NCBI GenBank assembly: GCA_963965975.1
Contig: OZ014415.1
Span: 4,469,001-4,533,000, forward strand
Length of the DNA stretch: 64,000 nucleotides
Direction: 5' to 3'
Source of the DNA: Xestospongia bergquistia
Lineage: Eukaryota > Porifera > Demospongiae > Haplosclerida > Petrosiidae
Shown in pieces: positions 29,720 to 58,040 of this stretch. Positions within the stretch are counted from its first letter, which is position 1. Every line of letters starts with the position of its first letter. Position numbers and translations under genes: made by a program. A model generated the notes under the pieces. The model was given only the letters and a program-made list of their open reading frames with translations, was not told the origin of the DNA and did no database searches.

Positions 29720-29745
29720 AACAGCTATTAACTATAGGACTTTTT
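29720..29745 (+). repeat. Truncated monomer, about 102 bp missing
   Basis: GCTATTAAC (ending at monomer base 46) is followed directly by TATAGGACTTTTT (from base 6 of the next unit). Only about 41 bp of one monomer remain. The phase shifts abruptly but both sides are normal B, as expected for unequal recombination or a deletion. Confidence 0.85.
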
Positions 29746-31437: not shown

Positions 31438-31465
31438 TGCTCACTCTATTAGTAAGTTAGTTTGC
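31438..31465 (+). repeat. Truncated monomer, about 42 bp missing
   Basis: GCTCACTCTATT jumps to AGTAAGTTAG, removing bases from about 10 to 51, most of dyad 2. ACTTTACAAGG on either side is 244 bp apart (31,251 and 31,495) instead of 286. The monomers before and after are nearly identical copies of each other, with CTGCTCTATC and TTTAGTGAGATTGTC, so the deletion sits inside a local 2-monomer duplication. Confidence 0.85.
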
Positions 31466-34400
31466 ATTAACGCTCTAAAGTCTTTAAGTTAAAGACTTTA
31501 CAAGGTTTAGACTACTGAGAGAAGTTTATAAAATAAACTGCTCTATCTAAAGGACTTTATGGCACTAACTAAATAAACAGCTATTAACAGTTTAGTGAGA
31601 TTGTCTGCATTATCGCTCTAAAGTCTTGAAGTTAAAGACTTCAGTAGTTTTAGACTATTGAGAGAAGTTTATAAAATAAACTGCTCAGTCTAAAGGACTT
31701 TATTGCAATAACTAAATAAACAGTGATTAACAGTTTAGTAAGATTGTCTGCATTAACGCTCTAAAGTCTTTAAGTTAAAGTCTTTAGAATGTTTAGACTA
31801 TTGAGAGATGTTTATAAAGTAAACTGCTCACTCTAAAGGACTTTATATCATTAACTAAATGAACAGCTGTTAACAGTTTAGTAAGTTAGTTTGCATTAAC
31901 GCTCTAAAGTCTTTAGGTTAAAGACTTCTGTAGGTTTAGACTATTGAGAGAAGTTTATAAAGTAAACTGCTCAGTCTAAAGGACTTTATGGCACTAACTA
32001 AATAAACAGCTATTAACAGCTTAGTTAGTTAGTTTGCATTAACGCTCTAAAGTCTTTAAGTTAAAGACTTTAGAAGGTTTAGACTATTGAGAGAAGTTTA
32101 TAAAGTAAACTGCTCAGTCTAAAAGACTTTATGGCACTAACTAAATAAACAGCTATTAACAGTTTAGTAAGTTAGTTTGCATTAACCCTCTATAGTCTTT
32201 AAGTTAAAGACTTTAGAAGGTTTAGACTATCGAGAGAAGTTTATAAAGTAAACTGCTCAGTATAAAGGACGTTATGGCACTAACTAAGTAAACAGCTATT
32301 AACAGTTTAGTAAGTTAGTTTGCATTAACGCTCTAAAGTCTTTAAGTTAAAGACTTTAGAGAGTTTAGACTATTGACAGATTTTTATAAAGGAAACTGCT
32401 CAGTATATAGCACTTTTTGGCACTAACTAAACAAGCAGCTATTAACAGTTTAGTAAGTTAGTTTGCATTAACGATCTAAAGTCTTTAAGTTAAAGACTTT
32501 AGACGGTTTAGACTTTTGACAGACGTTTATAAAGTAAACTGCACAGTCTAAAGGACTTTATGGCACTAACTAAATAAACAGCTATTAACAGTTTAGTAAG
32601 TTAGTTTTCATTAACGCTCTAAAGTCTTTAAGTTAAAGACCTTAAAAGGTTTAGACTATTGAGAGAAGTTTATAAAGTAAACTGCTCAGTCTAAAGGACT
32701 TTATGGCACTAACTAAATAAACAGCTGTTAACAGTTTAGTAAGTTAGTTTGCATTAACGCTCTAAAGTCTTTAAGTTAAAGAGTTTAGTAGGTTTAGACT
32801 ATTGAGTGAAATTTATAAAGTAAACTGCTCAGTCTAAAGGACTTTATGGCACTAACTAAATAAACAGCTATTAACAGTTTAGTACGTTAGTTTGCATTAA
32901 CACTCTAAAGTCTTTAAGTTAAAGACTTTACAAGGTTTAGACTATTGAGAGAAGTTTATAAAATAAACTGCTCAGTCTAAAGGACTTTATGGCACTAACT
33001 AAATAAACAGCCATTAACAGTTTAGTAAGATTATCTGCATTAACGCTCTAAAGTCTTTAAGTTAAAGGCTTTAGAAGGTTTAGACTATTGAGAGAATTGT
33101 ATAAAGTAAACTGCTCAGTCTAAAGGACTTTATATCACTAACTAAATGAACACCTATTAACAGTTTAGTGAGTTAGTTTGCATTAACGCTCTAAAGTCTT
33201 TAAGTTAAAGAGTTTAGTAGGTTTAGACTAATCAGAGAATTTCATAAAGTAAACTGCTCAGTCTAAAGGACTTTATGGCACTAACTAAATAAACAGCTAT
33301 TAACAGTTTTGAAAGTTTGTTTGCATTAACGCTCTAAAGTCTTTAAGATAAACACTTTAGAAGGTTTAGACTATTGAGAGAAGTTTATAAAGTAAACTGC
33401 TCAGTCTAAAGGACTTTATGGCACTAACTAAATAAACAGCTATTAAAAGTTTAGTAAGTTAGTTTGCATTAACGCTCTAAAGTCTTTAAGTTAAAGACTT
33501 TAGAAGGTTTAGACTATTGAGAGAAGTTTAAAAAGTAAACTGCTCAGTCTAAAGGACTTTATGGCACGAACTAAATAAACAGCTATTAACAGTTTAGTAA
33601 GTCAGTTTGCATTAACGCTCTAAAGTCTTTAAGTTATGACTTTAGAGAGTTTAGACTATTGAGAGATTTTTATAAAGTAAACTGCTCAGTTTGTAGCACT
33701 TTTTCGCACTAACTAAACAAGCAGCTATTAACAGTTTAGTAAGTTAGTTGGCATTAACGCCCTAAAGTCTTTAAGTTAAAGACTTTAGAAGGTTTAGACT
33801 ATTAAGAGACGTTTCTAAAGTAAACTACTCAGTCTAAAGGACTTTATGGCACTAACTAAATAAGCAGCTATTAACAGTTTAGTAAGTTAGTTAGCATTAA
33901 CGCTCTAAAGTCTTTAAGTTAAAGACTTCAGTAGTTTTAGACTATTGAGAGAAGTTTATAAAGTAAACTGCTCAGTCTAAAGGACTTTATGGCACTAACT
34001 AAATAAACAGCTATTAACAGTTTAGTAAGTTAGTTTGCATTAACGCTCTAAAGTCTTTAAGTTAAAGACTTTAGAAGGTTTAGACTATTGAGAGAAGTTT
34101 ATAAAGTAAACTACTCAGTCTAAAGGACTTTATCGCACTAACAAAATAAACAGCTATTAACAGTTTAGTAAGTTAGTTTGCATTGACGCTCTAAAGTCTT
34201 TAAGTTAAAGACTTTACAAGGTTTAGACTACAGAGAGAAGATTATAAAATAAACTGCTCAGTCTAAAGGACTTTATGGCACTAACTAAATAAACAGCTAT
34301 TAACAGTTTAGTAAGATTGTCTGCAATAACGCTCTAAAGTCTTTAAGTTAAAGACTTTAGAAGGTTTAGACTATTGAGAGAATTGTATAAAGTAAACTGC

Positions 34401-36235
34401 TCAGTCTAAAGGACTTTATATCACTAAATAAATGAACAGCTATTAACAGTTTAGTAAGTTAGTTTGCATTAACGCTTTAAAGTCTTTAAGTTAAAGAGTT
34501 TAGTAGGTTTAGACTAATCAGAGAATTTCATAAAGTAAACAGCTCAGTCTAAAGGACTTTATGGCACTAACTAAATAAGCAGCTGTTAACAGTTTAGTAA
34601 GTTAGTTTGCATTATCGCTCTAAAGTCTTTAAGTTAAAGACTTCAGTAGTTTTAGACTATTGAGAGAAGTTTATAAAGTAAACTGCTCAGTCTAAAGGAC
34701 TTTATGGCACTAACTAAATAAACAGCTATTAACAGTTTAGTAAGTCAGTTTGCATTAACGCTCTAAAGTCTTTAAGTTAAAGACTTTATGGAGTTTAGAC
34801 TATGGAGAGATTTTTATAAAGTAAACTGCTCAGTCTAAAGGACTTTATGGCACTGACTAAATAAACAGCTATTAACAGTTTAGTAAATTAGTTTGCATTA
34901 ACGCTCTAAAGTCTTTAAGTTAAAGACTTCAGTAGTTTTAGACTATTGAGAGAAGTTTATAAAGTAAACTGCTCAGTCTAAAGGACTTTATGGCACTAAC
35001 TAAATAAGGAGCTATTAACAGTTTAGTAAGTTAGTTTGCATTAAAACTCTAAAGTCTTTACGTTAAAGACTTTAGAAGTATTAGACTATTGAGAGTAGTT
35101 TATAAAATAAACTGCTCAGTCTAAAGGACTTTCTTGCACTAACTAAATAAACAGTTATTAACAGTTTAGTAAGATTGTCTGCATTAACGCTCTAAAGTCT
35201 TTAAGTTAAAGTCTTTAGAATGTTTAGACTATTGAGAGAAGTTTATAAAGTCAACTGCTCAGTCTAAAGGACTTTATATCACTAACTAAATAAACACCTA
35301 TTAACAGTTTAGTAAGTTAGTTTGCATTAACGCTCTAAAGTCTTTAGGTTAAAGACTTCAGTAGGTTTAGACTATTGAGAGAAGTTTATAAAGTAAACTG
35401 CTCAGTCTAAAGGACTTTATAGCACTAACTAAATAAACAGCTATTAACAGTTTTGTAAGTTAGTTTGCATTAACGCTCTAAAGTCTTTAAGTTAAAGACT
35501 TTAGAAGGTTTAGACTATTGAGAGAAGTTTATAAAGTAAACTGCTCAGTCTAAAAGACTTTATGGCACTAACTAAATAAACAGCTATTAACAGTTTAGTA
35601 AGTTAGTTTGCATTAACCCTCTATAGTCTTTAAGTTAAAGACTTTAGAAGGTTTAGACTATCGAGAGAAGTTTATAAAGTAAACTGCTCATTCTAAAGGA
35701 CTTTATGGCACTAACTAAATAAACAGCTATTAACAGTTTAGTAAGTTACTTTGCATTAACGCTCTAAAGTCTTTAAGTTAAAGACTTTAGAAGGTTTAGA
35801 CTATTGAGAGTCGTTTATAAAGTAAACTGCATAGTCTAAAGGACTTTATGGCACTAACTAAATAAACAGCTATTAACAGTTTAGTAAGTTAGTTTGCATT
35901 AACGCTTTAAAGTCTTTAAGTTAAATACTTCAGTAGTCTTAGACTATTGAGAGAAGTTTATAAAGTAAACTGGTCAGTCTAAATGACTTTATGGCACTAA
36001 CTAAATAAACAGCTATTAACAGTTTAGTAAGTTAGCTTGCATTAACGCTCTAAAGTCTTTAAGTTGAAGACTTTACAAGGTTTAGACTATTGAGAGAAGT
36101 TTATAAAATAAACTGCTCACTCTAAAGGACTTTATGGCACTAACTAAATAAACAGCTATTAACAGTTTAGTAAGATTGTCTGCATTAACGCTCTAAAGTC
36201 TTTAAGTTAAAGACTTTAGAAGGTTTAGAGAATTG

Positions 36236-36540
36236 AGAGAATTGTATAAAGTAAACTGCTCAGTCTAAAGGACTTTATATCATTAACTAAATGAACAGCT
36301 ATTAACAGTTTAGTAAGTTAGTTTGCATTAACGCTCTAAAGTCTTTAAGTTAAAGAGTTTAGTAGGTTTAGACTAATCAGAGAATTTCATAAAGTAAACT
36401 GCTCAGTCTAAAGGACTTTATGGCACTAACTAAATAAACAGCTATTAACAGTTTAGTAAGTTAGTTTGCATTAACGCTCTAAAGTCTTTAAGTTAAACAC
36501 TTTAGAAGGTTTAGACTATTGAGAGAAGTTTATAAAGTAA
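36236..36540 (+). repeat. Linker cassette of the long HOR, first occurrence
   Basis: Most of a 3-monomer cassette marked by GAATTGTATAAAG, TATATCATTAAC with AATGAACAG, and GACTAATCAGAGAATTTC. The same cassette precedes HOR copy 4 (47,396-47,827) and follows it (about 51,540-51,970). It is missing between copies 1 and 2. Confidence 0.75.
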
Positions 36541-39500
36541 ACAGCTTAGTCTAAAGGACTTTATGGCACTAACTAAATAAACACTTATTAACAGTTTAGT
36601 GAGTTAGTTTGCATTAACACTCTAAAGTCTTTAAGTTAAAGACTTTAGAAGGTTTAGACTATTGAGAGAAGTTGATAAAGAAAACTGCTCAGTATAAAGG
36701 ACTTTATGGCACTAACTAAATAAACAGCTATTAACAGTTTAGTAAGTCAGTTTGCATTAACGCTCTAAAGTCTTTAAGTTATGACTTTAGAGAGTTTAGA
36801 CTATTGAGAGATTTTTATAAAGTAAACTGCTTAGTTTATAGCACTTTTTCGCACTAACTAAACAAGCAGCTATTAACAGTTTAGTAAGTTAGTTTGCATT
36901 AACGCCCTAAAGTCTTTAAGTTAAAGACTTTAGAAGGTTTAGACTATTGAGAGACTTTTATAAAGTAAACTGCTCAGACTAAAGGACTTTATTGCACTAA
37001 CTAAATAAGCAGCTATTAACAGTTTAGTAAGTTAGTTTGCATTAACGCTCTAAAGTCTTTAAGTTAAAGACTTCAGTAGTTTTAGACTATTGAGAGAAGT
37101 TTATAAAATAAACTGCTCAGTCTAAAGGACTGTATGGCACTAACTAAATAAACAGCTATTAACAGTTTAGTAAGTTAGTTTGCATTAACGCTCTAAAGTC
37201 TTTAAGTTAAAGACTTTAGAATGTTTAGACTATTGAGAGTAGTTTATAAAATAAACTGCTCAGTCTAAAGGAGTTTATGGCACTAAGTAAATAAACAGTT
37301 ATTAACAGTTTAGTAAGATTGTACTGCATTAACGCTCTAAAGTGTTTAAGTTAATGACTTTAGAATGTTTAGACTATTGAGAGAAGTTTATAAAGTAAAC
37401 TACTCAGTCTAAAGGACTTTATATCAGTAACTAAAAAAACAGCTATTAACAGTTTAGTAAGTTAGTTTGCATTAACGCTCTAAAGTCTTTAGGTTAAAGA
37501 CTTCAGTAGGTATAGACTATTGAGAGAAATTTATAAAGTAAACTGCTCAGTCTAAAGGACTTTATGGCACTAACTAAATAAACAGCTATTAACAGTTTAG
37601 TAAGTTAGTTTGCATTAACGCTCTAAAGTCTTTAAGTTAAAGACTTTAGAAGGTTTAGACTATTGAGAGAAGTTTATAAAGTAAACTGCTCAGTCTAAAA
37701 GACTTTATGGCACAAACTAAATAAACAGCATTAACAGTCTAGTAAGTTAGTTTACATTAACGCTCCATAGTCTTTAAGTTAGAGACTTTAAAAGGTTTAG
37801 ACTATTGAGAGAAGTTTGTAAAGTAAACTGCTCAGTCTAAAGGACTTTATGGCACTAACTAAATAAACAGCTATTAACAGTTTAGTAAGTTAGTTTGCAT
37901 TAACGCTCTAAAGTCTTTAAGTTAAAGACTTTAGAAGGTTTAGACTATTGAGAGAAGTTTATAAAGTAAACTGCTCAGTCTAAAAGACTTTATGGCACTA
38001 ACTAAATAAAAAGCTATTAACAGTTTAGTAAGTTAGTTTGCATTAACGCTCTAAAGTCTTTAAGTTAAAGACTTTAGAGAGTTTAGACTATTGAGAGAGT
38101 TTTATAAAGTAAACTGCTCAGTTTATAGCACTTTTTGGCACTAACTAAACAAGCAGCTATTAACAGTTTAGTAAGTTAGTTTGCATTAACGCTCTAAAGT
38201 CTTTAAGTTAAAGACTTTAGAAGGTTTAGACTGTTGAGAGAATTTTATAAAGTAAACTGCTCAGTCTAAAGGACTTTATGGCACTAACTAAATAAACAGC
38301 TATTAACAGTTTAGTAAGTTAGTTTGCATTAACGGTCTAAAGTCTTTAAGTTAAAAATTTTAGAAGGTTTAGACTATTGAGAGAAGTTTATACAGTAAAC
38401 TGCTCAGTCTAAAAGACTTTATGGCACTAACTAAATAAACAGCTATTAACAGTTTAGTAAGTTAGTTTGCATTAAGGCTCTAAAGTCTTTAAGTTAAAGA
38501 CTTTAGAAGGTTTAGACTATTAAGAGAAGTTTCTAAATTAAACTGCTCAGTGTAAAGGACTTTATGGCACTAACTAAATAAACAGCTATTAACAGTTTTG
38601 TAAGATTGTCTGCATTAACGCTCTAAAGTCGTTAAGTTAAAGACTTTAGAAGGTTTAGACTATTGAGAGACTTTTATAAAGTAAACTGCTCAGTCTAAAG
38701 GACTTTATGGCACTAACTAAAGAAACAGCTATTAACAGTTCAGTAAGTTAGTTTGCATTAACGCTCTAAAGTCTTTAAGTTAAAGACTTTAGAAGGTTTA
38801 GACAATTTAGAGTAGTTTAAAAAGTAAACTACTCAGTCTAAAGGACTTTATGGCACTAACTAAATAAACAGCTATTAACAATTTAGTAAGTTAGTTAGCA
38901 TTAACGCTCTAAAGTCTTTAAGTTAAAGACTTTAGAGAGTTTAGACTATTGAGAGGTTTTTATAAAAAAAACTGCTCAGTTTATAGGACTTTTGTTACTA
39001 ACTAAATAAGCAGCTATTAACAGTGTAGTAAGTTAGTTTGCATTAACGCTCTAAAGTCTTTAGGTTAATTACTTTAGAAGGTTTAGACTATTGAGAGACG
39101 TTTATAAAGTAAACTGCTCAGTATAAAGGACTTTATGGCACTAACTAAACAAACAGCTATTAACAGTTTAGTAAGTTAGTTTGCATTAACGCTCTAAAGT
39201 CTTTAAGTTAAAGACTTTAGAAGGTTTAGACTATTGAGAGAAGTTTATAAAGTTAATTGCTCAGTCTAAAAGACTTTATGGCACTAACTAAATAAACAGC
39301 TATTAACAGTTTAGTAAGTTAGTTTGCATTAACGCTCTAAAGTCTGTAAGTTAAAGACTTTAGCAGGTTTAGACTATTGAAAGAAGTTTATAAAGTAAAC
39401 TGCTCAGTCTAAAGGACTTTATGGCACTAACTAAATAAACAGCTATTAACAATTTAGTAAGTTAGTTTGCATTAACGCTCTAAAGTCTTTAAGTTAATGA

Positions 39501-40255
39501 CTTTAGAAGGTTTAGACTATTGAGAGTAGTTTCTAAAATAAACTGCTCAGTCTAAAGGACTTTATGGTACTACCTATATAAACAGCTATTAACAGTTGAG
39601 TAAGATTGTCTGCATTAACGCTCTATAGTCTTTAGGATAAAGACTTTAGTAGGTTTAGACTATTGAGAGAAGTTTATAAAGTAAACTGCTCAGACTAAAG
39701 CACTTTATATCACTAACTAAATGAACAGCTATTAACAGTTTAGTAAGTTAGTTTGCATTAACGCTCTAAAGTCTTTAAGTTAAAGACGTTAGAAGGGTTA
39801 AACTATTGAGAGAAGTTTATAAAATAAGCTGTTCTGTCTAAAGGACTTTATGGCACTACCTATATAAACAGCTATTAACAGTTGAGTAAGATTGTCTGCA
39901 TTAACGCTGTAAAGTCTTTAAGTTAAAGACTTTAGTAGGTTCAGACTATTGAGAGAAGATTATAAAGTAAACAGCTCAGTCTAAAGGACTTTATGGCACT
40001 AACTAATGAACAGCTATTAACATTTTAGTAAGTTAGTTTGCATTAACGCTCTAAAGTCTTTAAGTTAAAGACTTTAGAAGGTTTAGACTACTCAGAGAAT
40101 TTCATAAAGTAAACTGCTCAGACTAAAGGACTTTATGGCACTAACTAAATAAACAGCTATTAACTGTTTAGTAAGTTAGTTTGCATTAACGCTCTAAAGT
40201 CTTTATGTTAAAGACATTAGAAGGTTTAGACTATTGAGAGAAGATTATAAAGTAA
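36541..40255 (+). repeat. Long HOR, copy 1 (26 monomers, 3,715 bp)
   Basis: The unit starts with ACAGCTTAGTC and AACACTTATTAAC (36,541) and restarts at 40,256. Ordered marks inside include GTTATGACTTTAG, TTTTTCGCAC, CTTTAGGTTAAAG, ACAGCATTAACAGTC, TTTATACAG, GTTTCTAAATTAAAC, GACAATTTAGAG, TTTTGTTACTAAC (its TTTGTT at 38,991), GTCTGTAAG with TAGCAGG, GGTACTACC with TATATAAAC, and AATGAACAGC with AACATTTTAG. The run is a fixed sequence of about 26 distinguishable monomers, which defines a HOR rather than random variation. Confidence 0.88.
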
Positions 40256-41547
40256 ACAGCTTAGTCTAAAGGACTTTATGGCACTAACTAAATAAACACT
40301 TATTAACAGTTTAGTGAGTTAGTTTGCATTAACACTCTAAAGTCTTTAAGTTAAAGACTTTAGAAGGTTTAGACTATTGAGAGAAGTTGATAAAGAAAAC
40401 TGCTCAGTCTAAAGGACTTTATGGCACTAACTAAATAAACAGCTATTAACAGTTTAGTAAGTCAGTTTGCATTAACGCTCTAAAGTCTTTAAGTTATGAC
40501 TTTAGAGAGTTTAGACTATTGAGAGATTTTTATAAAGTAAACTGCTCAGTTTATAGCACTTTTTCGCACTAACTAAACAAGCAGCTATTAACAGTTTAGT
40601 AAGTTAGTTCGCATTAACGCCCTAAAGTCTTTAAGTTAAAGACTTTAGAAGGTTTAGACTATTGAGAGACTTTTATAAAGTAAACTGCTCAGTCTAAAGG
40701 ACTTTATTGCACTAACTAAATAAGCAGCTATTAACAGTTTAGTAAGTTAGTTTGCATTAACGCTCTAAAGTCTTTAAGTTAAAGACTTCAGTAGTTTTAG
40801 ACTATTGAGAGAAGTTTATAAAGTAAACTGCTCAGTCTAAAGGACTTTATGGCACTAACTAAATAAACAGCTATTAACAGTTTAGTAAGTTAGTTTGCAT
40901 TAACGCTCTAAAGTCTTTAAGTTAAAGCTTTAGAATGTTTAGACTATTGAGAGTAGTTTATAAAATAAACTGCTCAGTCTAAAGGAGTTTATGGCACTAA
41001 GTAAATAAACAGTTATTAACAGTTTAGTAAGATTGTACTGCATTAACGCTCTAAAGTGTTTAAGTTAATGACTTTAGAATGTTTAGACTATTGAGAGAAG
41101 TTTATAAAGTAAACTGCTCAGTCTAAAGGACTTTATATCATTAACTAAAAAAACAGCTATTAACAGTTTAGTAAGTTAGTTTGCATTAACGCTCTAAAGT
41201 CTTTAGGTTAAAGACTTCAGTAGGTATAGACTATTGAGAGAAATTTATAAAGTAAACTGCTCAGTCTAAAGGACTTTATGGCACTAACTAAATAAACAGC
41301 TATTAACAGTTTAGTAAGTTAGTTTGCATTAACTCTCTAAAGTCTTTAAGTTAAAGACTTTAGAAGGTTTAGACTATTGAGAGAAGTTTATAAAGTAAAC
41401 TGCTCAGTCTAAAAGACTTTATGGCACAAACTAAATAAACAGCATTAACAGTCTAGTAAGTTAGTTTACATTAACGCTCCATAGTCTTTAAGTTAGAGAC
41501 TTTAAAAGGTTTAGACTATTGAGAGAAGTTTATAAAGTAAACTGCTC

Positions 41548-41560
41548 AGTCTAAAGGACT
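41548..41560. repeat. Dyad 1 of the monomer (AGTC/GACT)
   Basis: Short inverted repeat AGTC-TAAAG-GACT at bases 2-14 of the reference monomer. It is shared by families A and B. Alone it is too short to matter, but it belongs to the recurring CTAAAG/GACTTTA theme of the monomer. Confidence 0.6.
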
Positions 41561-41567
41561 TTATGGC

Positions 41568-41608
41568 ACTAACTAAATAAACAGCTATTAACAGTTTAGT
41601 AAGTTAGT
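41568..41608. repeat. Dyad 2: long imperfect inverted repeat, 15-bp arms
   Basis: Bases 22-36 (ACTAACTAAATAAAC) and 48-62 (GTTTAGTAAGTTAGT) are reverse complements at 13 of 15 positions around an 11-base spacer. In family A, base 37 is T, so two further pairs (T37-A47 and G38-C46) extend the stem to 17 positions with 14 matches and a 7-base loop; B has lost the T37-A47 pair. The variant subfamily reading AAGATTGTCTGC (for example near 14,332, 18,466 and 39,602) weakens the right arm. Whether it extrudes as a cruciform or folds in a transcript is not shown by sequence. Confidence 0.8.
41570..41580 (+). other. Stops in all three frames within one monomer
   Basis: TAA occurs at bases 24, 28 and 32 of the monomer, one in each plus-strand frame. 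The minus strand is likewise stopped in three frames by the plus-strand triplets CTA at base 5, TTA at base 42 and TTA at base 58. Any open frame is therefore limited to about one monomer unless several stops have mutated. This is the main reason for calling no coding sequence anywhere in the window. Confidence 0.9.
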
Positions 41609-41620
41609 TTGCATTAACGC

Positions 41621-41649
41621 TCTAAAGTCTTTAAGTTAAAGACTTTAGA
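41621..41649. repeat. Dyad 3: perfect 29-bp palindrome
   Basis: Bases 75-88 (TCTAAAGTCTTTAA) and 90-103 (TTAAAGACTTTAGA) are exact reverse complements separated by one base, G in B and T in the common A form. This is the strongest structural signal in the monomer and recurs roughly every 143 bp throughout, intact in many copies. It breaks in particular variants: TTTAAGTAAAAG in the 52-55 kb trimer, TTTAAGATAAAG near 15.8-16.4 and 61.8 kb, and a 4-base loss giving AGACTAGAAGG in some A monomers (5,086 and 14,239). A dyad this symmetrical could be a binding site for a dimeric protein or a cruciform; that is inference. Confidence 0.9.
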
Positions 41650-41669
41650 AGGTTTAGACTATTGAGAGA

Positions 41670-41686
41670 AGTTTATAAAGTAAACT
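41670..41686. repeat. Dyad 4 (AGTTTA/TAAACT) around TTTATAAA
   Basis: Bases 124-129 (AGTTTA) and 135-140 (TAAACT) are exact reverse complements with a 5-base spacer. The self-complementary TTTATAAA lies inside at bases 126-133, so a TATAAA string is present on both strands of each intact monomer. The dyad is common to A and B. Variant monomers with AAACAGCTCGG (A) or TTTCATAAAG (B) alter one arm. Confidence 0.75.
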
Positions 41687-43965
41687 GCTCAGTCTAAAAG
41701 ACTTTATGGCACTAACTAAATAAAAAGCTATTAACAGTTTAGTAAGTTAGTTTGCATTAACGCTCTAAAGTCTTTAAGTTAAAGACTTTAGAGAGTTTAG
41801 ACTATTGAGAGAGTTTTATAAAGTAAACTGCTCAGTTTATAGCACTTTTTGGCACTAACTAAACAAGCAGCTATTAACAGTTTAGTAAGTTAGTTTGCAT
41901 TAACGCTCTAAAGTCTTTAACATAAAGACTTTATAAGGTTTAGACTGTTGAGAGAATTTTATAAAGTAAACGGCTCAGTCTAAAGGACTTTATGGCACTA
42001 ACTAAATAAACAGCTATTAACAGTTTAGTAAGTTAGTTTGCATTAACGGTCTAAAGTCTTTAAGTTAAAAATTTTAGAAGGTTTGGACTATTGAGAGAAG
42101 TTTATACAGTAAACTGCTCAGTCTAAAAGACTTTATGGCACTAACTAAATAAACAGCTATTAACAGTTTAGTAAGTTAGTTTGCATTAACGCTCTAAAGT
42201 CTTTAAGTTAAAGACTTTAGAAGGTTTAGACTATTAAGAGAAGTTTCTAAATTAAACTGCTCAGTCTAAAGGACTTTATGGCACTAACTAAATAAACAGC
42301 TATTAACAGTTTTGTAAGATTGTCTGCATTAACGCTCTAAAGTCGTTAAGTTAAAGACTTTAGAAGGTTTAGACTATTGAGAGAATTTTATAAAGTAAAC
42401 TGCTCAGTCTAAAGGACTTTATGGCACTAACTAAAGAAACAGCTATTAACAGTTCAGTAAGTTAGTTTGCATTAACGCTCTAAAGTCTTTAAGTTAAAGA
42501 CTTTAGAAGGTTTAGACAATTTAGAGTAGTTTAAAAAGTAAACTACTCGGTCTAAAGGACTTTATGGCACTAACTAAATAAACAGCTATTAACAATTTAG
42601 TAAGTTAGTTTGCATTAACGCTCTAAAGTCTTTAAGTTAAAGACTTTAGAGAGTTTAGACTATTGAGAGGTTTTTATAAAAAAAACTGCTCAGTTTATAG
42701 GACTTTTGTTACTAACTAAATAAGCAGCTATTAACAGTGTAGTAAGTTAGTTTGCATTAACGCTCTAAAGTCTTTAAGTTAATTACTTTAGAAGGTTTAG
42801 ACTATTGAGAGACGTTTATAAAGTAAACTGCTCAGTATAAAGGACTTTATGGCACTAACTAAACAAACAGCTATTAACAGTTTAGTAAGTTAGTTTGCAT
42901 TAACGCTCTAAAGTCTTTAAGTTAAAGACTTTAGAAGGTTTAGACTATTGAGAGAAGTTTATAAAGTTAATTGCTCAGTCTAAAAGACTTTATGGCACTA
43001 ACTAAATAAACAGCTATTAACAGTTTAGTAAGTTAGTTTGCATTAACGCTCTAAAGTCTGTAAGTTAAAGACTTTAGCAGGTTTAGACTATTGAAAGAAG
43101 TTTATAAAGTAAACTGCTCAGTCTAAAGGACTTTATGGCACTAACTAAATAAAAGCTATTAACAATTTAGTAAGTTAGTTTGCATTAACGCTCTAAAGTC
43201 TTTAAGTTAATGACTTTAGAAGGTTTAGACTATTGAGAGTAGTTTCTAAAATAAACTGCTCAGTCTAAAGGACTTTATGGTACTACCTATATAAACAGCT
43301 ATTAACAGTTGAGTAAGATTGTCTGCATTAACGCTCTATAGTCTTTAGGATAAAGACTTTAGTAGGTTTAGACTATTGAGAGAAGTTTACAAAGTAAACT
43401 GCTCAGACTAAAGCACTTTATATCACTAACTAAATGAACAGCTATTAACAGTTTAGTAAGTTAGTTTGCATTAACGCTCTAAAGTCTTTAAGTTAAAGAC
43501 GTTAGAAGGGTTAAACTATTGAGAGAAGTTTATAAAATAAGCTGTTCTGTCTAAAGGACTTTATGGCACTACCTATATAAACAGCTATTAACAGTTGAGT
43601 AAGATTGTCTGCATTAACGCTGTAAAGTCTTTAAGTTAAAGACTTTAGTGGGTTCAGACTATTGAGAGAAGATTATAAAGTAAACAGCTCAGTCTAAAGG
43701 ACTTTATGGCACTAACTAATGAACAGCTATTAACATTTTAGTAAGTTAGTTTGCATTAACGCTCTAAAGTCTTTAAGTTAAAGACTTTAGAAGGTTTAGA
43801 CTACTCAGAGAATTTCATAAAGTAAACTGCTCAGACTAAAGGACTTTATGGCACTAACTAAATAAACAGCTATTAACTGTTTAGTAAGTTAGTTTGCATT
43901 AACGCTCTAAAGTCTTTATGTTAAAGACATTAGAAGGTTTAGACTATTGAGAGAAGATTATAAAG

Positions 43966-45119
43966 TAAACTGCTCAGTCTAAAGGACTTTATGGCACTAA
44001 ATAAATAAACAGCTATTAACAGTTTAGTAAGTTAGTTAGCATTAACGCTCTAAAGTCTTTAAGTTAAAGACTTTAGAAGGTTTAGACTATTCAGAGAAGT
44101 TTACAAAATAAACTGCTCAGTCTAAAGGACTTTATGGCACTAACTAAATAAACAGCTATTAACAGTTTAGTAAGTTAGTTTGCATTAACGCTCTAAAGTC
44201 TTTAAGTTAAAGACTTTAGTAGGTTTAAACTATTGAGACAAGTTTAAAAAGTAAACTGTTCAATCTAAAGGACTTTATGGCACTAAATAAATAAAAAGCC
44301 ACTAACAGTTTAGTAAGTTAGTTTGCATTAACGCTCTAAAGTCTTTAAGTTAAAGACTTTAGAAGGTTTAAACTATTGAGAGAAGTTTAAAAAGAAAACT
44401 GCTCAGTCTAAAGGACTTTATGGCACTAACTAAATAAGCAGCTATTAACAGTTTAGTAAGTTAGTTTGCATTAACGCTCTAAAGTCTTTAAGTTAAAGAC
44501 TTTAGAGAGTTTAGACTATTGAGAGATTTTTATAAAGTAAACTGCTCAGTTTATAGGACTTTATGGCACTAACTGAATAAGTAGCTATTAACAGTTTAGT
44601 AAGTTAGTTTGCATTAACGCTCTAAAGTCATTAAGTTAAAGACTTTAGAAGGTTTAGACTATTGAGAGACATTTATAAAGTAAACTGCTTAGTCTAAAGG
44701 ACTTTATGGCACTAACTAAATAAACAGCTATTAACAGTTTAGTAAGTTAGTTTGCATTAACGCTCTAAAATCTTTAAGTTAAAGACTTTGGAGAGTTTAG
44801 ACTATTGAGAGATTTTTATAAAGTAAACTGCTCAGTTTATAGGACTTTATGGCACTAACTAAATAAACAGCTATTAACAGTTTAGTAAGTTAATTTGCAT
44901 TAACGCACTAAAGTTTTTAAGTTAAAGACTTTAGAAGGTTTAGACTATTGAGAGACGTTTATAAAGTAAACTGCTCAGTCTAAAGCACTTTATGGCACTA
45001 ACTAAATAAACAGCTATTAACAGTTTAGTAAGTTAGTTTGCATTAACGCTCTAAAGTCTTTAAGTTAAAGACTTTAGAAGGTTTAGACTATTGAGAGAAG
45101 TTTATAAAGTAAACTGCTC
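43966..45119 (+). repeat. 8-monomer block inserted in the long HOR
   Basis: This block separates HOR copy 2 from the truncated copy 3. From about 44,041 it matches 58,041-59,120, about 14,003 bp away (TATTGAGACA at 44,231 and 58,234). Shared marks are TTTACAAAATAAAC, TGTTCAATCTAAAG, AAAGCCACTAACAG, GTCATTAAG, AAAATCTTTAAG with TTTGGAGAG, and GCACTAAAGTTTTT. It replaces the first part of the HOR unit, so it may reflect gene conversion or unequal exchange between the two sites. Confidence 0.8.
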
Positions 45120-47395
45120 AGTCTAAAAGACTTTATGGCACTAACTAAATAAAAAGCTATTAACAGTTTAGTAAGTTAGTTTGCATTAACGCTCTAAAGT
45201 CTTTAAGTTAAAGACTTTAGAGAGTTTAGACTATTGAGAGAGTTTTATAAAGTAAACTGCTCAGTTTATAGCACTTTTTGGCACTAACTAAACAAGCAGC
45301 TATTAACAGTTTAGTAAGTTAGTTTGCATTAACGCTCTAAAGTCTTTAAGTTAAAGACTTTATAAGGTTTAGACTGTTGAGAGAATTTTATAAAGTAAAC
45401 TGCTCAGTCTAAAGGACTTTATGGCACTAACTAAATAAACAGCTATTAACAGTTTAGTAAGTTAGTTTGCATTAACGGTCTAAAGTCTTTAAGTTAAAAA
45501 TTTTAGAAGGTTTAGACTATTGAGAGAAGTTTATACAGTAAACTGCTCAGTCTAAAAGACTTTATGGCACTAACTAAATAAACAGCTATTAACAGTTTAG
45601 TAAGTTAGTTTGCATTAACGCTCTAAAGTCTTTAAGTTAAAGACTTTAGAAGGTTTAGCCTATTAAGAGAAGTTTCTAAATTAAACTGCTCAGTCTAAAG
45701 GACTTTATGGCACTAACTAAATAAACAGCTATTAACAGTTTTGTAAGATTGTCTGCATTAACGCTCTAAAGTCGTTAAGTTAAAGACTTTAGAAGGTTTA
45801 GACTATTGAGAGAATTTTATAAAGTAAACTGCTCAGTCTAAAGGACTTTATGGCACTAACTAAAGAAACAGCTATTAACAGTTCAGTAAGTTAGTTTGCA
45901 TTAACGCTCTAAAGTCTTTAAGTTAAAGACTTTAGAAGGTTTAGACAATTTAGAGTAGTTTAAAAAGTAAACTACTCAGTCTAAAGGACTTTATGGCACT
46001 AACTAAATAAACAGCTATTAACAATTTAGTAAGTTAGTTTGCATTAACGCTCTAAAGTCTTTAAGTTAAAGACTTTAGAGAGTTTAGACTATTGAGAGGT
46101 TTTTATAAAAAAAACTGCTCAGTTTATAGGACTTTTGTTACTAACTAAATAAGCAGCTATTAACAGTGTAGTAAGTTAGTTTGCATTAACGCTCTAAAGT
46201 CTTTAGGTTAATTACTTTAGAAGGTTTAGACTATTGAGAGACGTTTATAAAGTAAACTGCTCAGTATAAAGGACTTTATGGCACTAACTAAATAAACAGC
46301 TATTAACAGTTTAGTAAGTTAGTTTGCATTAACGCTCTAAAGTCTTTAAGTTAAAGACTTTAGAAGGTTTAGACTATTGAGAGAAGTTTATAAAGTTAAT
46401 TGCTCAGTCTAAAAGACTTTATGGCACTAACTAAATAAACAGCTATTAACAGTTTAGTAAGTTAGTTTGCATTAACGTTCTAAAGTCTGTAAGTTAAAGA
46501 CTTTAGCAGGTTTAGACTATTGAAAGAAGTTTATAAAGTAAACTGCTCAGTCTAAAGGACTTTATGGCACTAACTAAATAAACAGCTATTAACAATTTAG
46601 TAAGTTAGTTTGCATTAACGCTCTAAAGTCTTTAAGTTAATGACTTTAGAAGGTTTAGACTATTGAGAGTAGTTTCTAAAATAAACTGCTCAGTCTAAAG
46701 GACTTTATGGTACTACCTATATAAACAGCTATTAACAGTTGAGTAAGATTGTCTGCATTAACGCTCTATAGTCTTTAGGATAAAGACTTTAGTAGGTTTA
46801 GACTATTGAGAGAAGTTTATAAAGTAAACTGCTCAGACTAAAGCACTTTATATCACTAACTAAATGAACAGCTATTAACAGTTTAGTAAGTTAGTTTGCA
46901 TTAACGCTCTAAAGTCTTTAAGTTAAAGACGTTAGAAGGGTTAAACTATTGAGAGAAGTTTATAAAATAAGCTGTTCTGTCTAAAGGACTTTATGGCACT
47001 ACCTATATAAACAGCTATTAACAGTTGAGTAAGATTGTCTGCATTAACGCTGTAAAGTCTTTAAGTTAAAGACTTTAGTAGGTTCAGACTATTGAGAGAA
47101 GATTATAAAGTAAACAGCTCAGTCTAAAGGACTTTATGGTACTAACTAATGAACAGCTATTAACATTTTAGTAAGTTAGTTTGCATTAACGCTCTAAAGT
47201 CTTTAAGTTAAAGACTTTAGAAGGTTTAGACTACTCAGAGAATTTCATAAAGTAAACTGCTCAGACTAAAGGACTTTATGGCACTAACTAAATAAACAGC
47301 TATTAACTGTTTAGTAAGTTAGTTTGCATTAACGCTCTAAAGTCTTTATGTTAAAGACATTAGAAGGTTTAGACTATTGAGAGAAGATTATAAAG
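45120..47395 (+). repeat. Long HOR, copy 3 (5'-truncated)
   Basis: Starts at the monomer equivalent to about 41,695 of copy 2 and runs to the end of the unit. TTTGTT of the TTTTGTTACTAAC mark is at 46,134, 3,429 bp (24 monomers) after copy 2. The missing first part is replaced by the 8-monomer block upstream. Private changes include TAGCCTATTAAG near 45,657 and AACGTTCTAAAG near 46,474. Confidence 0.85.
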
Positions 47396-50300
47396 TAAAC
47401 TGCTCAGTCTAAAGGACTTTATGGCACTAACTAAATAAACAGCTATTAACAGTTTAGTAAGTTAGTTAGCATTAACGCTCTAAAGTCTTTAAGTTAAAGA
47501 CTTTAGAAGGTTTAGACAATTGAGAGAATTGTATAAAGTAAACTGCTCAGTCTAAAGGACTTTATATCATTAACTAAATGAACAGCTATTAACAGTTTAG
47601 TAAGTTAGTTTGCATTAACGCTCTAAAGTCTTTATGTTAAAGAGTTTAGTAGGTTTAGACTAATCAGAGAATTTCATAAAGTAAACTGCTCAGTCTAAAG
47701 GACTTTATGGCACTAACTAAATAAACAGCTATTAACAGTTTAGTAAGTTAGTTTGCATTAACGCTCTAAAGTCTTTAAGTTAAACACTTTAGAAGGTTTA
47801 GACTATTGAGAGAAGTTTATAAAGTAAACAGCTTAGTCTAAAGGACTTTATGGCACTAACTAAATAAACACTTATTAACAGTTTAGTGAGTTAGTTTGCA
47901 TTAACACTCTAAAGTCTTTAAGTTAAAGACTTTAGAAGGTTTAGACTATTGAGAGAAGTTGATAAAGAAAACTGCTCAGTCTAAAGGACTTTATGGCACT
48001 AACTAAATAAACAGCTATTAACAGTTTAGTAAGTCAGTTTGCATTAACGCTCTAAAGTCTTTAAGTTATGACTTTAGAGAGTTTAGACTATTGAGAGATT
48101 TTTATAAAGTAAACTGCTCAGTTTATAGCACTTTTTCGCACTAACTAAACAAGCAGCTATTAACAGTTTAGTAAGTTAGTTTGCATTAACGCCCTAAAGT
48201 CTTTAAGTTAAAGACTTTAGAAGGTTTAGACTATTGAGAGACTTTTATAAAGTAAACTGCTCAGTCTAAAGGACTTTATTGCACTAACTAAATAAGCAGC
48301 TATTAACAGTTTAGTAAGTTAGTTTGCATTAACGCTCTAAAGTCTTTAAGTTAAAGACTTCAGTAGTTTTAGACTATTGAGAGAAGTTTATAAAGTAAAC
48401 TGCTCAGTCTAAAGGACTTTATGGCACTAACTAAATAAACAGCTATTAACAGTTTAGTAAGTTAGTTTGCATTAACGCTCTAAAGTCTTTAAGTTAAAGA
48501 CTTTAGAATGTTTAGACTATTGAGAGTAGTTTATAAAATAAACTGCTCAGTCTAAAGGAGTTTATGGCACTAAGTAAATAAACAGTTATTAACAGTTTAG
48601 TAAGATTGTACTGCATAACGCTCTAAAGTGTTTAAGTTAATGACTTTAGAATGTTTAGACTATTGAGAGAAGTTTATAAAGTAAACTGCTCAGTCTAAAG
48701 GACTTTATATCATTAACTAAAAAAACAGCTATTAACAGTTTAGTAAGTTAGTTTGCATTAACGCTCTAAAGTCTTTAGGTTAAAGACTTCAGTAGGTATA
48801 GACTATTGAGAGAAATTTATAAAGTAAACTGCTCAGTCTAAAGGACTTTATGGCACTAACTAAATAAACAGCTATTAACAGTTTAGTAAGTTAGTTTGCA
48901 TTAACGCTCTAAAGTCTTTAAGTTAAAGACTTTAGAAGGTTTAGACTATTGAGAGAAGTTTATAAAGTAAACTGCTCAGTCTAAAAGACTTTATGGCACA
49001 AACTAAATAAACTGCATTAACAGTCTAGTAAGTTAGTTTACATTAACGCTCCATAGTCTTTAAGTTAGAGACTTTAAAAGGTTTAGACTATTGAGAGAAG
49101 TTTATAAAGTAAACTGCTCAGTCTAAAGGACTTTATGGCACTAACTAAATAAACAGCTACTAACAGTTTAGTAAGTTAGTTTGCATTAACGCTCTAAAGT
49201 CTTTAAGTTAAAGACTTTAGAAGGTTTAGACTATTGAGAGAAGTTTATAAAGTAAACTGCTCAGTCTAAAAGACTTTATGGCACTAACTAAATAAAAAGC
49301 TATTAACAGTTTAGTAAGTTAGTTTGCATTAACGCTCTAAAGTCTTTAAGTTAAAGACTTTAGAGAGTTTAGACTATTGAGAGAGTTTTATAAAGTAAAC
49401 TGCTCAGTTTATAGCACTTTTTGGCACTAACTAAACAAGCAGCTATTAACAGTTTAGTAAGTTAGTTTGCATTAACGCTCTAAAGTCTTTAACTTAAAGA
49501 CTTTATAAGGTTTAGACTGTTGAGAGAATTTTATAAAGTAAACTGCTCAGTCTAAAGGACTTTATGGCACTAACTAAATAAACAGCTATTAACAGTTTAG
49601 TAAGTTAGTTTGCATTAACGGTCTAAAGTCTTTAAGTTAAAAATTTTAGAAGGTTTGGACTATTGAGAGAAGTTTATACAGTAAACTGCTCAGTCTAAAA
49701 GACTTTATGGCACTAACTAAATAAACAGCTATTAACAGTTTAGTAAGTTAGTTTGCATTAACGCTCTAAAGTCTTTAAGTTAAAGACTTTAGAAGGTTTA
49801 GACTATTAAGAGAAGTTTCTAAATTAAACTGCTCAGTCTAAAGGACTTTATGGCACTAACTAAATAAACAGCTATTAACAGTTTTGTAAGATTGTCTGCA
49901 TTAACGCTCTAAAGTCGTTAAGTTAAAGACTTTAGAAGGTTTAGACTATTGAGAGAATTTTATAAAGTAAACTGCTCAGTCTAAAGGACTTTATGGCACT
50001 AACTAAAGAAACAGCTATTAACAGTTCAGTAAGTTAGTTTGCATTAACGCTCTAAAGTCTTTAAGTTATTGACTTTAGAAGGTTTAGACAATTTAGAGTA
50101 GTTTAAAAAGTAAACTACTCAGTCTAAAGGACTTTATGGCACTAACTAAATAAACAGCTATTAACAATTTAGTAAGTTAGTTTGCATTAACGCTCTAAAG
50201 TCTTTAAGTTAAAGACTTTAGAGAGTTTAGACTATTGAGAGGTTTTTATAAAAAAAACTGCTCAGTTTATAGGACTTTTGTTACTAACTAAATAAGCAGC

Positions 50301-51538
50301 TATTAACAGTGTAGTAAGTTAGTATGCATTAACGCTCTAAAGTCTTTAAGTTAATTACTTTAGAAGGTTTAGACTATTGAGAGACGTTTATAAAGTAAAC
50401 TGCTCAGTATAAAGGACTTTATGGCACTAACTAAACAAACAGCTATTAACAGTTTAGTAAGTTAGTTTGCATTAACGCTCTAAAGTCTTTAAGTTAAAGA
50501 CTTTAGAAGGTTTAGACTATTGAGAGAAGTTTATAAAGTTAATTGCTCAGTCTAAAAGACTTTATGGCACTAACTAAATAAACAGCTATTAACAGTTTAG
50601 TAAGTTAGTTTGCATTAACGCTCTAAAGTCTGTAAGTTAAAGACTTTAGCAGGTTTAGACTATTGAAAGAAGTTTATAAAGTAAACTGCTCAGTCTAAAG
50701 GACTTTATGGCACTAACTAAATAAACAGCTATTAACAATTTAGTAAGTTAGTTTGCATTAACGCTCTAAAGTCTTTAAGTTAATGACTTTAGAAGGTTTA
50801 GACTATTGAGAGTAGTTTCTAAAATAAACTGCTCAGTCTAAAGGACTTTATGGTACTACCTATATAAACAGCTATTAACAGTTGAGTAAGATTGTCTGCA
50901 TTAACGCTCTATAGTCTTTAGGATAAAGACTTTAGTAGGTTTAGACTATTGAGAGAAGTTTATAAAGTAAACTGCTCAGACTAAAGCACTTTATATCACT
51001 AACTAAATGAACAGCTATTAACAGTTTAGTAAGTTAGTTTGCATTAACGCTCTAAAGTCTTTAAGTTAAAGACGTTAGAAGGGTTAAACTATTGAGAGAA
51101 GTTTATAAAATAAGCTGTTCTGTCTAAAGGACTTTATGGCACTACCTATATAAACAGCTATTAACAGTTGAGTAAGATTGTCTGCATTAACGCTGTAAAG
51201 TCTTTAAGTTAAAGACTTTAGTAGGTTCAGACTATTGAGAGAAGATTATAAAGTAAACAGCTCAGTCTAAAGGACTTTATGGTACTAACTAATGAACAGC
51301 TATTAACATTTTAGTAAGTTAGTTTGCATTAACGCTCTAAAGTCTTTAAGTTAAAGACTTTAGAAGGTTTAGACTACTCAGAGAATTTCATAAAGTAAAC
51401 TGCTCAGACTAAAGGACTTTATGGCACTAACTAAATAAACAGCTATTAACTGTTTAGTAAGTTAGTTTGCATTAACGCTCTAAAGTCTTTATGTTAAAGA
51501 CATTAGAAGGTTTAGACTATTGAGAGAAGATTATAAAG
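47396..51538 (+). repeat. Long HOR, copy 4 (29 monomers, 4,143 bp)
   Basis: Full unit including the 3-monomer linker cassette at its start (TAATCAGAGA at 47,661; next occurrence at 51,804, exactly 4,143 bp on). The ACAGCTTAGTC start mark is at 47,828 and TTTGTT of the TTTTGTTACTAAC mark at 50,277. Monomer order matches copies 1 and 2. Private changes include a lost T in CTGCATAACGC near 48,613 and AGTATGCATT near 50,322. Confidence 0.88.
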
Positions 51539-51705
51539 TAAACTGCTCAGTCTAAAGGACTTTATGGCTCTAACTAAATAAACAGCTATTAACAGTTTAG
51601 TAAGTTAGTTAGCATTAACGCTCTAAAGTCTTTAAGTTAAAGACTTTAGAAGGTTTAGACAATTGAGAGAATTGTATAAAGTAAACTGCTCAGTCTAAAG
51701 GACTT

Positions 51706-53420
51706 TATATCATTAACTAAATGAACAGCTATTAACAGTTTAGTAAGTTAGTTTGCATTAACGCTCTAAAGTCTTTAAGTTAAAGAGTTTAGTAGGTTTA
51801 GACTAATCAGAGAATTTCATAAAGTAAACTGCTCAGTCTAAAGGACTTTATGGCACTAACTAAATAAACAGCTATTAACAGTTTAGTAAGTTAGTTTGCA
51901 TTAACGCTCTAAAGTCTTTAAGTTAAAGACTTTAGAAGGTTTAGACTATTGAGAGAAGTTTATAAAGTAAACTGCTCAGTCTAAAGCACTTTATGGCACT
52001 AACTAAATAAACAGCTATTAACAGTTTAGTGAGTTAGTTTACATTAACGCTCTAAAGTCTTTAAGTTAAAGACTTTAGAAGGTTTAGACTATTCAGAGAA
52101 GTTTACAAAATAAACTGCTCAGTCTAAAGGACTTTATGGCACTAACTAAATAAACAGCTATTAACAGTTTAGTAAGTTAGTTTGCATTAACGCTCTAAAG
52201 TCTTTAAGTAAAAGACTTTAGAAGGTTTAGACTATTAAGGGAAGTTTATAAAGTAAACTGCTCAGTCTAAAAGACACTATGGCACTAACTAAATAAACAG
52301 GTATTAACAGTTTAGTAAGTTAGTTTGCATTAACTCTCTAAAGTCTTTAAGTTAAAGACTTTAGAAGGTTTAGACTATTGAGAGGAGTTTATAAAGTAAA
52401 CTGCTCAGTCTAAAGCACTTTATGGCACTAACTAAATAAACAGCTATTAACAGTTTAGTGAGTTAGTTTACATTAACGCTCTAAAGTCTTTAAGTTAAAG
52501 ACTTTAGAAGGTTTAGACTATTCAGAGAAGTTTACAAAATAAACTGCTCAGTCTAAAGGACTTTATGGCACTAACTAAATAAACAGCTATTAACAGTTTA
52601 GTAAGTTAGTTTGCATTAACGCTCTAAAGTCTTTAAGTAAAAGACTTTAGAAGGTTTAGACTATTAAGGGAAGTTTATAAAGTAAACTGCTCACTCTAAA
52701 AGACACTATGGCACTAACTAAATAAACAGGTATTAACAGTTTAGTAAGTTAGTTTGCATTAACGCTCTAAAGTCTTTAAGTTAAAGACTTTAGAAGGTTT
52801 AGACTATTGAGAGGAGTTTGTAAAGTAAACTGCTCAGTCTAAAGGACTTTATGGCACTAACTAAATAAACAGCTATTACAGTTTAGTAAGTTAGTTTGCA
52901 TTAACGCTCTAAAGTCTTTAAGTAAAAGACTTTAGAAGGTGTAGACTATTAAGGGAAGTTTATAAAGTAAACTGCTCAGTCTAAAAGACACTATGGCACT
53001 AACTAAATAAACAGGTATTAACAGTTTAGTAAGTTAGTTTGCATTAACGCTCTAAAGTCTTTAAGTTAAAGACTTTAGAAGGTTTAGACTATTGAGAGAA
53101 CTTTATAAAGTAAACTGCTCAGTCTAAAGGACTTTATGGCACTAACTAAATAAACAGCTATTAACAGTTTAGTAAGTTAGTTTGCATTAACGCTCTAAAG
53201 TCTTTAAGTTAAAGACTTTAGAAGGTTTCGACTATTGAGAGAAGTTTATAAAATAAACTGCTCAGTCTAAAGGACTTTATGGCGCTAACTAAATAAACCG
53301 CTATTAACAGTTTAGTAAGTTAGTTTGCATTAACGCTCAAAAGTCTTTATGTTAAAGACATTAGAAGGTTTAGACTATTGAGAGAAGATTATAAAGTAAA
53401 CTGCTCAGTCTAAAGGACTT
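51706..53420 (+). repeat. 12-monomer unit with nested 3-mer HOR, copy 1
   Basis: TATATCATT recurs at 51,706 and 53,421, 1,715 bp apart (12 x 143 = 1,716). Inside are two tandem trimers of exactly 429 bp starting at 51,981 and 52,410. Each trimer has monomer 1 (TAAAGCAC, TTTAGTGAGTTAG, TTTACATTAAC, TTTACAAAATAAAC), monomer 2 (TTTAAGTAAAAG, ATTAAGGG, breaking dyad 3) and monomer 3 (AAAGACACTATGG, ACAGGTATTAAC, GAGAGGAG). A GCTATTACAG monomer with one base lost follows at 52,871. Confidence 0.85.
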
Positions 53421-57977: not shown

Positions 57978-58040
57978 CAGTCTAAAGCACTTTATGGCAC
58001 TAACTAAATAAACAGCTATTAACAGTTTAGTGAGTTAGTT

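Follow-up and report, generated by a model that had tools for sequence, protein, structure and literature searches.

A 29-bp palindrome in the probably centromeric 143-bp satellite of the demosponge Xestospongia bergquistia as a candidate protein-binding box

Several centromeres that lack a CENP-B box are rich in short dyads, for which cruciforms have been proposed, whereas others are not, such as those of Drosophila with the exception of the Y chromosome (passages of PMC8997354 and PMC9070824); conserved motifs specific to a satellite have rarely been identified so far, as stated in part of a review (PMC8122249), and, according to a passage of a 2026 paper (PMC13081366), macro-dyads in satellites had until now been documented in Tribolium only. 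The window analysed here, a stretch of 64,000 nucleotides from the demosponge Xestospongia bergquistia (positions 1-64000, corresponding to C5:4469001-4533000 of an assembly of 146.46 Mb in 21 contigs), consists wholly of a 143-bp tandem repeat detected with Tandem Repeats Finder, and the element in question is a perfect palindrome at monomer positions 75-103. This palindrome may be a conserved box (core at 79-102) that is read by its sequence and bound by a putative dimeric protein, a tentative reading that nevertheless ranks ahead of neutral homogenisation, of cruciform formation and, last, of nucleosome placing.

The sponge satellite shares AT-richness, the lack of a CENP-B box and predicted hairpins above chance with the dyad-rich centromeres of Kasinathan and Henikoff (2018), as these are presented in passages of PMC8997354 and PMC9070824. 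The dyads described there, however, are short (<10 bp) and many, whereas the sponge effect stems mostly from one palindrome with 14-bp arms; in the sponge, short-dyad density is only modestly raised. In comparison with the CENP-B box of great-ape, mouse and horse satellites (a passage of PMC8997354), the sponge box would be a functional analogue, likewise short and more conserved than its monomer, but palindromic, unrelated in sequence and with a putative binder; under the favoured reading, the palindrome is probably a protein-binding site that is an analogue of the CENP-B box but distinct from it.

It is an open question whether a centromeric satellite is recognised by its sequence, by its shape or by neither, and these readings can be separated here through a usable contrast: one palindrome resists the spread of variants in the older monomer class, three neighbouring dyads do not, and compensating changes are few. 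That a sponge centromere has a palindromic box of specific sequence, without relation to the CENP-B box and kept by selection or drive amid the turnover of monomers, is a proposition on the unlikely side; if it is true, centromere boxes have at least two separate origins in animals, one of them in a lineage among the earliest to branch. No report of a sponge centromere satellite was found among the open-licence literature matches listed, and the satellite may serve as an entry point to the centromeres of an animal group that branched early.

The CENP-B box motif is TTCGNNNNANNCGGG. No site with fewer than three mismatches to it occurs in the 64 kb, and all 53 sites at up to three mismatches have three, against 232 expected, which bears out the remark in the first-pass annotation that no CENP-B-box-like motif is present. 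The CENP-B/pogo-type helix-turn-helix family PF03221 has 53 matches in the genome and none in 14 control genomes, matches that show only that candidate binders exist and say nothing about the palindrome as their site; HJURP/Scm3 (PF10384) has no match here, nor in any control genome, so that this negative is uninformative.

The palindrome and the three other dyads

The reference monomer (Table 1) is letter-identical to the majority consensus of the 445 near-full monomers obtained from the window by consensus cutting (mean identity to the consensus 93.7%; copies spanning less than about 80% of the 143 bp were omitted), a count slightly below the 447 of the first-pass annotation. The window contains a young, homogeneous core class and an older edge class, whose consensuses differ at seven positions and, inside 75-103, solely at the unpaired centre.

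The four dyads that the annotation had placed at monomer positions 2-14, 22-62, 75-103 and 124-140 are all there (13 + 41 + 29 + 17 = 100 bases), including the perfect 29-bp palindrome with 14-bp arms around one base, whereas its assertion of a dyad density well above chance is not confirmed for the monomer as a whole. Dinucleotide shuffles yield best non-overlapping dyad sets of 105.8 ± 10.5 bases, and the monomer one of 118 bases (p 0.15), the score of which gives p 0.06 with 75-103 and p 0.39 without it (0.30 and 0.80, respectively, for the edge-class consensus). Since coverage of the kind of 100 out of 143 bases is also reached by shuffles, the count of four was rejected and the four dyads were dropped as a unit. 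Only 75-103 exceeds chance alone, a 14-bp arm arising in 1 of 1,000 dinucleotide shuffles of the monomer, the kind of control proposed in the annotation. The second dyad is one pair shorter in the core class, as the T37-A47 pair of the edge class is replaced by A37, unpaired with A47.

The palindrome consists of two copies of TAAAG-N-CTTTA, with a looser version at monomer positions 6-17, and the other three dyads are best explained as incidental to the AT-richness of the repeat and to its recurrent TAAAG/CTTTA words. When 75-103 is excised, perfect short-spacer dyads fall to the chance level, and dyads with arms of at least 7 and spacers of at most 30 bases are still in excess (0 of 300 shuffles reach the observed value), the excision itself joining new neighbours. 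Dyad density measured in the published style with our own script, on stretches of at least 1,500 bases (9 of 11), each trimmed to 6,000 bases, amounts to 0.53-0.85 per base in nine array stretches versus 0.25-0.69 in nine non-satellite stretches; relative to the shuffles of each stretch, it is 1.2-1.6-fold in the nine array stretches versus 0.97-1.52-fold in eight non-satellite ones and 3.2-fold in the ninth. Three deletions recur in the monomers: one of 8 bp at 121-128 in 12 core monomers, one of 14 bp at 83-96 in 5 monomers and another of 8 bp at 79-86 in 3. The 14-bp deletion is as long as the distance from one TAAAG/CTTTA word to its repeat.

Conservation of the palindrome in the older class

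Variation was surveyed in 1,719 monomers, drawn from the window together with 24 further loci (three copies in L022, none in L024). The first class assignment, made from four diagnostic columns of which column 121 carried a wrong core letter, gave 1,151 core, 563 edge and 5 ambiguous monomers, and a corrected assignment from the six class differences outside the palindrome gave 1,163, 540 and 16, respectively, with agreement for 1,691 of the 1,719 and unchanged conclusions; the paired-change, fold, C97G, deletion, 28-site-mean, edge-median and first per-chromosome rank results rest on the first assignment unless marked as corrected. Class counts exclude the 5 ambiguous monomers and identical copies, and groups of fewer than 30 monomers were omitted. 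The core class makes up the central part of C5 and almost every sampled monomer of C4, C7, C10, C11 and C15, and the edge class the flanks of C5 and almost every sampled monomer of C1, C3, C8 and C14.

Alleles seen once per stretch (private) were taken as entering, and alleles that together reach at least 20% in some stretch, or that make a consensus difference, as having spread. Private alleles are as frequent in the palindrome arms as elsewhere (16.1 versus 15.4 per column, 24 groups, p 0.22), whereas spread variants occupy 4 of 28 arm columns versus 56 of 114 other columns (p 0.0005), the lowest value among the 143 rotations of a 29-bp window. The depletion is also found with a 10% cut-off (18 arm columns versus 98 elsewhere, p 0.011), in a Mann-Whitney comparison of arms and other columns (p 0.0004; p 0.0003 in edge stretches), and in A/T (p 0.028) and G/C columns (p 0.003) taken separately. 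No depletion is seen in the first (5 of 13 columns), second (19 of 41) or fourth dyad (10 of 17), nor in the remainder (22 of 43), so that the arm conservation anticipated in the first-pass annotation is present at 75-103, in the older class only, and absent from the other three dyads. In a scan blind to the palindrome, covering all windows of 9 to 49 bases with column permutation, the windows 79-102 and 80-102 tied as best when the free centre was neutralised (p 0.003).

Nine later stretches with 301 monomers, all from chromosomes already sampled, reproduce this result (p 0.0018; with the 20% cut-off, 2 of 28 arm columns versus 27 of 114 others, p 0.039); the 29-bp window of lowest mean variability begins at exactly 75, and the other three dyads are likewise without depletion. 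In the edge class, the palindrome ranks 1 of 143 windows on C1, C5 and C8, 2 on C3 and 50 on C14 (1, 2, 1, 2 and 50 for C1, C5, C8, C3 and C14 with the corrected assignment). Core ranks are scattered, and the conservation signal is therefore confined to the older class: the box carries fewer spread variants than the remaining monomer, a difference that is driven by the edge class and not seen in the core.

The palindrome would, in the proposed mechanism, receive mutations at the normal rate, and mutated copies would seldom spread through the array, because a dimeric DNA-binding protein would read the palindrome and favour the copies carrying it, either via better centromeric chromatin or via steered homogenisation, much as the CENP-B box does in alpha-satellite. 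The palindrome, its rarity in shuffles, the contrast between entering and spreading variants in the older class and the lack of general compensatory change are observed, and from there we infer a centromere function, the binding protein and the selective cause. The central base of the palindrome is free to vary, which fits a dimer, whose half-sites need not contact the centre.

Several results weigh against a box read by a protein. Its main weaknesses are that conservation in one half-site does not match that in the other (Spearman -0.13, n=14) and that the core class is silent; the palindrome ranks 111, 137, 70, 14, 38 and 18 of 143 in the core class, without depletion (combined p 0.34; corrected, 111 on C10, 137 on C11, 70 on C15, 14 on C4, 34 on C5 and 14 on C7), the 28-site mean ranks 64 of 143 (57 corrected), and the Mann-Whitney value of core stretches is p 0.12. 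Few variants spread in the core class (5 of 168 arm cells and 34 of 684 other cells reach 10%), so that power is low there and its silence amounts to no evidence of constraint. With a 30% cut-off, the depletion weakens to 3 arm columns versus 29 elsewhere (p 0.07), and to p 0.27 in the nine later stretches; the blind scan gives p 0.045 when the centre is kept and p 0.048 when stratified by base, its best window then being 80-88; by median, the palindrome window ranks 6 of 143 both in the edge class and in the later stretches. In addition, the arrays share ancestry, so that chromosomes and stretches are not independent, and the arm variant C97G is itself widely spread.

Among the alternatives, the one that survives best, although still unlikely, is that the palindrome arose by accident in an AT-rich repeat and that its few spread variants result from local homogenisation or repair, through conversion tracts or template switching at the palindrome, or from the common descent of few lineages, without a function. 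The absence of depletion in the core class and the subfamilies common to several stretches agree with this possibility, as do deletions, which fall within the palindrome slightly more often than expected (21 of 70 distinct events for 14.2 expected, and 13 of 50 for 10.1), as if the palindrome troubled replication. Nevertheless, correction of one arm from the other would presumably copy the mutation about half of the time, whereas doubles in the core class number 7 for 8.7 expected, and the minimum of variation registers exactly on the palindrome in two sets of stretches.

Pairing-preserving changes and predicted folding

Compensatory change was assessed by comparison with randomly drawn pairs of complementary columns and, for the palindrome, also with slid partners; the distinct monomers used numbered 968 in the core and 558 in the edge class. 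In the core class, no excess of pairing-preserving changes was found in any of the four dyads, the doubles at 75-103 being those just mentioned. In the edge class, 75-103 has 20 such changes versus 8.0 expected, a value reached by 0.5% of random sets, and 11 of the 20 are a single G-C to C-G exchange at columns 81/97, on C1 only; with the corrected assignment, the figures are 7 versus 8.8 (core) and 20 versus 7.6 (edge). The first, second and fourth dyads show no significant excess in the edge class (ratios 1.43, 1.40 and 0.91, reached by 23%, 14% and 52% of random sets), and the palindrome of the nine later stretches has 4 pairing-preserving changes versus 2.7 expected. General compensatory evolution, which the first-pass annotation had envisaged for the arms, was discarded, given the lack of a core excess and an edge excess at 75-103 that is mostly one exchange on C1.

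Of the 563 edge monomers, 85 carry the unpaired state GG that C97G leaves at columns 81/97, a state present in 9 of the 10 main edge stretches, and 11 monomers carry the repaired state CG; in the nine later stretches, GG is present in 58 of 301 monomers and CG in 2, both on C1. Since the GG intermediate is common on several chromosomes and the CG end state is rare and restricted, among the sampled stretches, to C1, pairing is neither required for spread nor often restored. That C97G mostly breaks a pair which is left unrepaired is expected if the sequence, and not the stem, is read. In the C1 stretches L006, L007, L008 and L040/L041, the change at 81/97 can be followed stepwise from G-C through G-G to C-G. 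Because conservation is found only at 75-103 and paired changes are without general excess, one dyad seems to matter, by its sequence more than by its pairing, and the count of four does not.

Predicted secondary structure lies above chance, as in the dyad-rich satellites free of CENP-B boxes. The consensus DNA has a minimum free energy (MFE) of -23.3 kcal/mol (z -4.5 versus shuffles; -4.9 in a repeat run), and z -2.55 (p 0.013) when the palindrome is excised; in samples, 60 of the 1,719 real monomers have a mean z of -2.9, and 100 of 278 non-satellite 143-mers of the same genome a mean of 0.0. The fold predicted for the edge consensus contains exactly the four hairpins of the first-pass annotation and two short helices. 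Of the non-B-DNA reading given there, the folding above shuffles and the missing CENP-B box stand; its own test by pairing-preserving changes gives no general excess.

A structural explanation, in which the palindrome and the other dyads would extrude hairpins or cruciforms recognised, for instance, by a CENP-A chaperone and the fold itself would be selected, appears more doubtful than the neutral one, although it has been proposed for other centromeres (passages of PMC8997354 and PMC9070824). In agreement with it, besides the folding above both shuffles and non-satellite DNA and the C1 exchange from GC through GG to CG, the predicted fold of edge monomers is more favourable by 1.75 kcal/mol than that of controls in which the same mutations are placed at random (p 1.5e-7, n=150), an advantage still seen for mutations outside the palindrome (-0.59 kcal/mol, p 0.003). 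The corresponding values for core monomers are -0.39 (p 0.11) and, outside the palindrome, +0.45 (p 0.012), that is, folding slightly worse than random. Variants inside the palindrome lie at sites less harmful to the fold when the free centre is counted (-0.63, p 3e-5 in the core; -0.72, p 3e-9 in the edge), whereas without the centre the effect is small in the core (mean cost 2.23 versus 2.55 expected) and nil in the edge (2.49 versus 2.51). The lack of a significant excess of paired changes in the core class and in the three other edge dyads, and the small number in the later stretches, also argue against selection on the fold, as do the pair missing from the second dyad in the core class, the pair broken by C97G and the fact that the palindrome is perfect in only about one third of the monomers. 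Finally, it is very improbable that the dyads position nucleosomes, as the 143-bp monomer is close to nucleosome-core length but has no 10-bp WW periodicity that stands out (top periods 7.5, 8.4 and 11.9 for the core class and 11.9 and 7.5 for the edge class, from their consensuses), even if palindromes are among the possible nucleosome-positioning signals named in part of a review. The review in question is PMC8122249.

Array organisation and distribution of the satellite

Table 1. Features of the window, with positions counted from its first nucleotide
Feature	Position in window	Strand	Monomer positions	Description	Basis
Satellite array	1..64000	- to 275, + to 5876, - to 14052, + to 64000		445 near-full copies, four orientation blocks	Tandem Repeats Finder, monomer cutting, orientation path
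Reference monomer	41547..41689	+		Majority consensus	Monomer cutting
Dyad D1	41548..41560	+	2-14	Imperfect, 4/6 pairs; alone not above chance; not conserved	
Dyad D2	41568..41608	+	22-62	Imperfect, 16/20 pairs in core consensus; not conserved	
Dyad D3	41621..41649	+	75-103	Perfect 29-bp palindrome, 14-bp arms, 14/14 pairs, free centre 41635	
Dyad D4	41670..41686	+	124-140	Imperfect, 6/8 pairs; alone not above chance; most variable of the four	
Most conserved box	41625..41648	+	79-102		Palindrome-blind scan
Core class	14053..64000	+		Young, homogeneous; 348 monomers, 95% identity to consensus, palindrome centre G	
Edge class	1..14052	.		Older; 97 monomers, 88% identity to core consensus, palindrome centre mostly T or A, inverted blocks	
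Orientation switch	275..276	.		- at monomer 30 to + at 2	Orientation path
Orientation switch	5876..5877	.		+ at monomer 30 to - at 26, nearly fold-back	Orientation path
Orientation switch	14052..14053	.		- at monomer 134 to + at 52; edge/core class boundary	Orientation path

A satellite centromere usually takes up a single internal stretch of its chromosome; on C5 the middle of the array is homogeneous and its flanks diverge, as is also usual, and the placement of the sponge array is centromere-like. Of the 20 non-mitochondrial contigs, at least 13 carry satellite matches (C1, C2, C3, C4, C5, C7, C8, C9, C10, C11, C12, C14 and C15), which, among the matches listed, lie at 0.32-0.66 of the contig on 10 contigs of known size, with the exception of an islet on C1. 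Because the satellite is present on so many contigs and is internal wherever contig size is known, this islet aside, it is probably the centromeric satellite of the demosponge, to which a centromere function would be assigned. The matches extend from 4.44 to 5.26 Mb of the 8.94 Mb of C5, that is, over about 0.8 Mb, and on C4 the satellite is discontinuous, with matches at 4.21 and 4.68 Mb and no monomer in 4.90-4.91 Mb. The exact 27-bp core of the palindrome has 18,449 copies in the genome, and the same pattern read backwards none; as 626 of 1,714 sampled monomers contain the exact core, a total of about 50,000 monomers, or about 5% of the genome, is suggested. The window has no Rfam match at gathering scores, no transfer RNA (tRNA) and no open reading frame of at least 100 amino acids; the satellite has no relatives among the plasmids or phages searched, and the palindrome no exact copy in the bacterial and archaeal genomes or viral contigs searched.

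Three orientation switches divide the window (Table 1) into blocks that include inverted sub-arrays of 5.6 and 8.2 kb, and satellite matches on C3 suggest inverted sub-arrays of tens of kb there. Further switches were mapped in L005 (position 7253), L010 (9096) and L035 (3737), the other jumps in L005 (33 listed) being ignored as they fall mostly in its first 2.6 kb, which is largely non-satellite DNA. As in the macro-dyads of TmSat1/TmSat2 in Tribolium madens (a passage of PMC13081366), multi-kb inverted sub-arrays are combined with small monomer dyads; unlike in that pair, a second satellite was not seen in the sponge window, and, whereas Tribolium reuses defined inversion sites according to the same passage, the six mapped sponge junctions all differ in monomer coordinates, without a recurrent conserved inversion site. 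Inversion mediated by the palindrome was considered and rejected, since 3 of 12 switch ends lie inside 75-103 (79, 93 and 77) versus 2.4 expected by length. At window position 14052, the change of class coincides with the change of orientation, as if the expansion of the core had reached an inversion boundary.

The islet on C1 (1.5454-1.5459 Mb, positions ~4443-4900 of stretch L022) consists of three diverged monomers, one with an intact palindrome, distant from the C1 array, and is possibly a relic or a seeded copy. C1 measures 28.2 Mb, compared with 5-12 Mb for the other nuclear contigs measured, and its array belongs, in the sampled stretches, nearly entirely to the old class. At the border of the C10 array (stretch L017, ~5535-5670), short degenerate repeats of the form CTACTAGCAACCTCTA come next. 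C21, of 18,997 bp, carries tRNAs for Phe, Gly, Val and Arg in its first 6 kb, and its frames under code 4 were recognised as nad4L and cox1, which we take to be mitochondrial content of the demosponge type.

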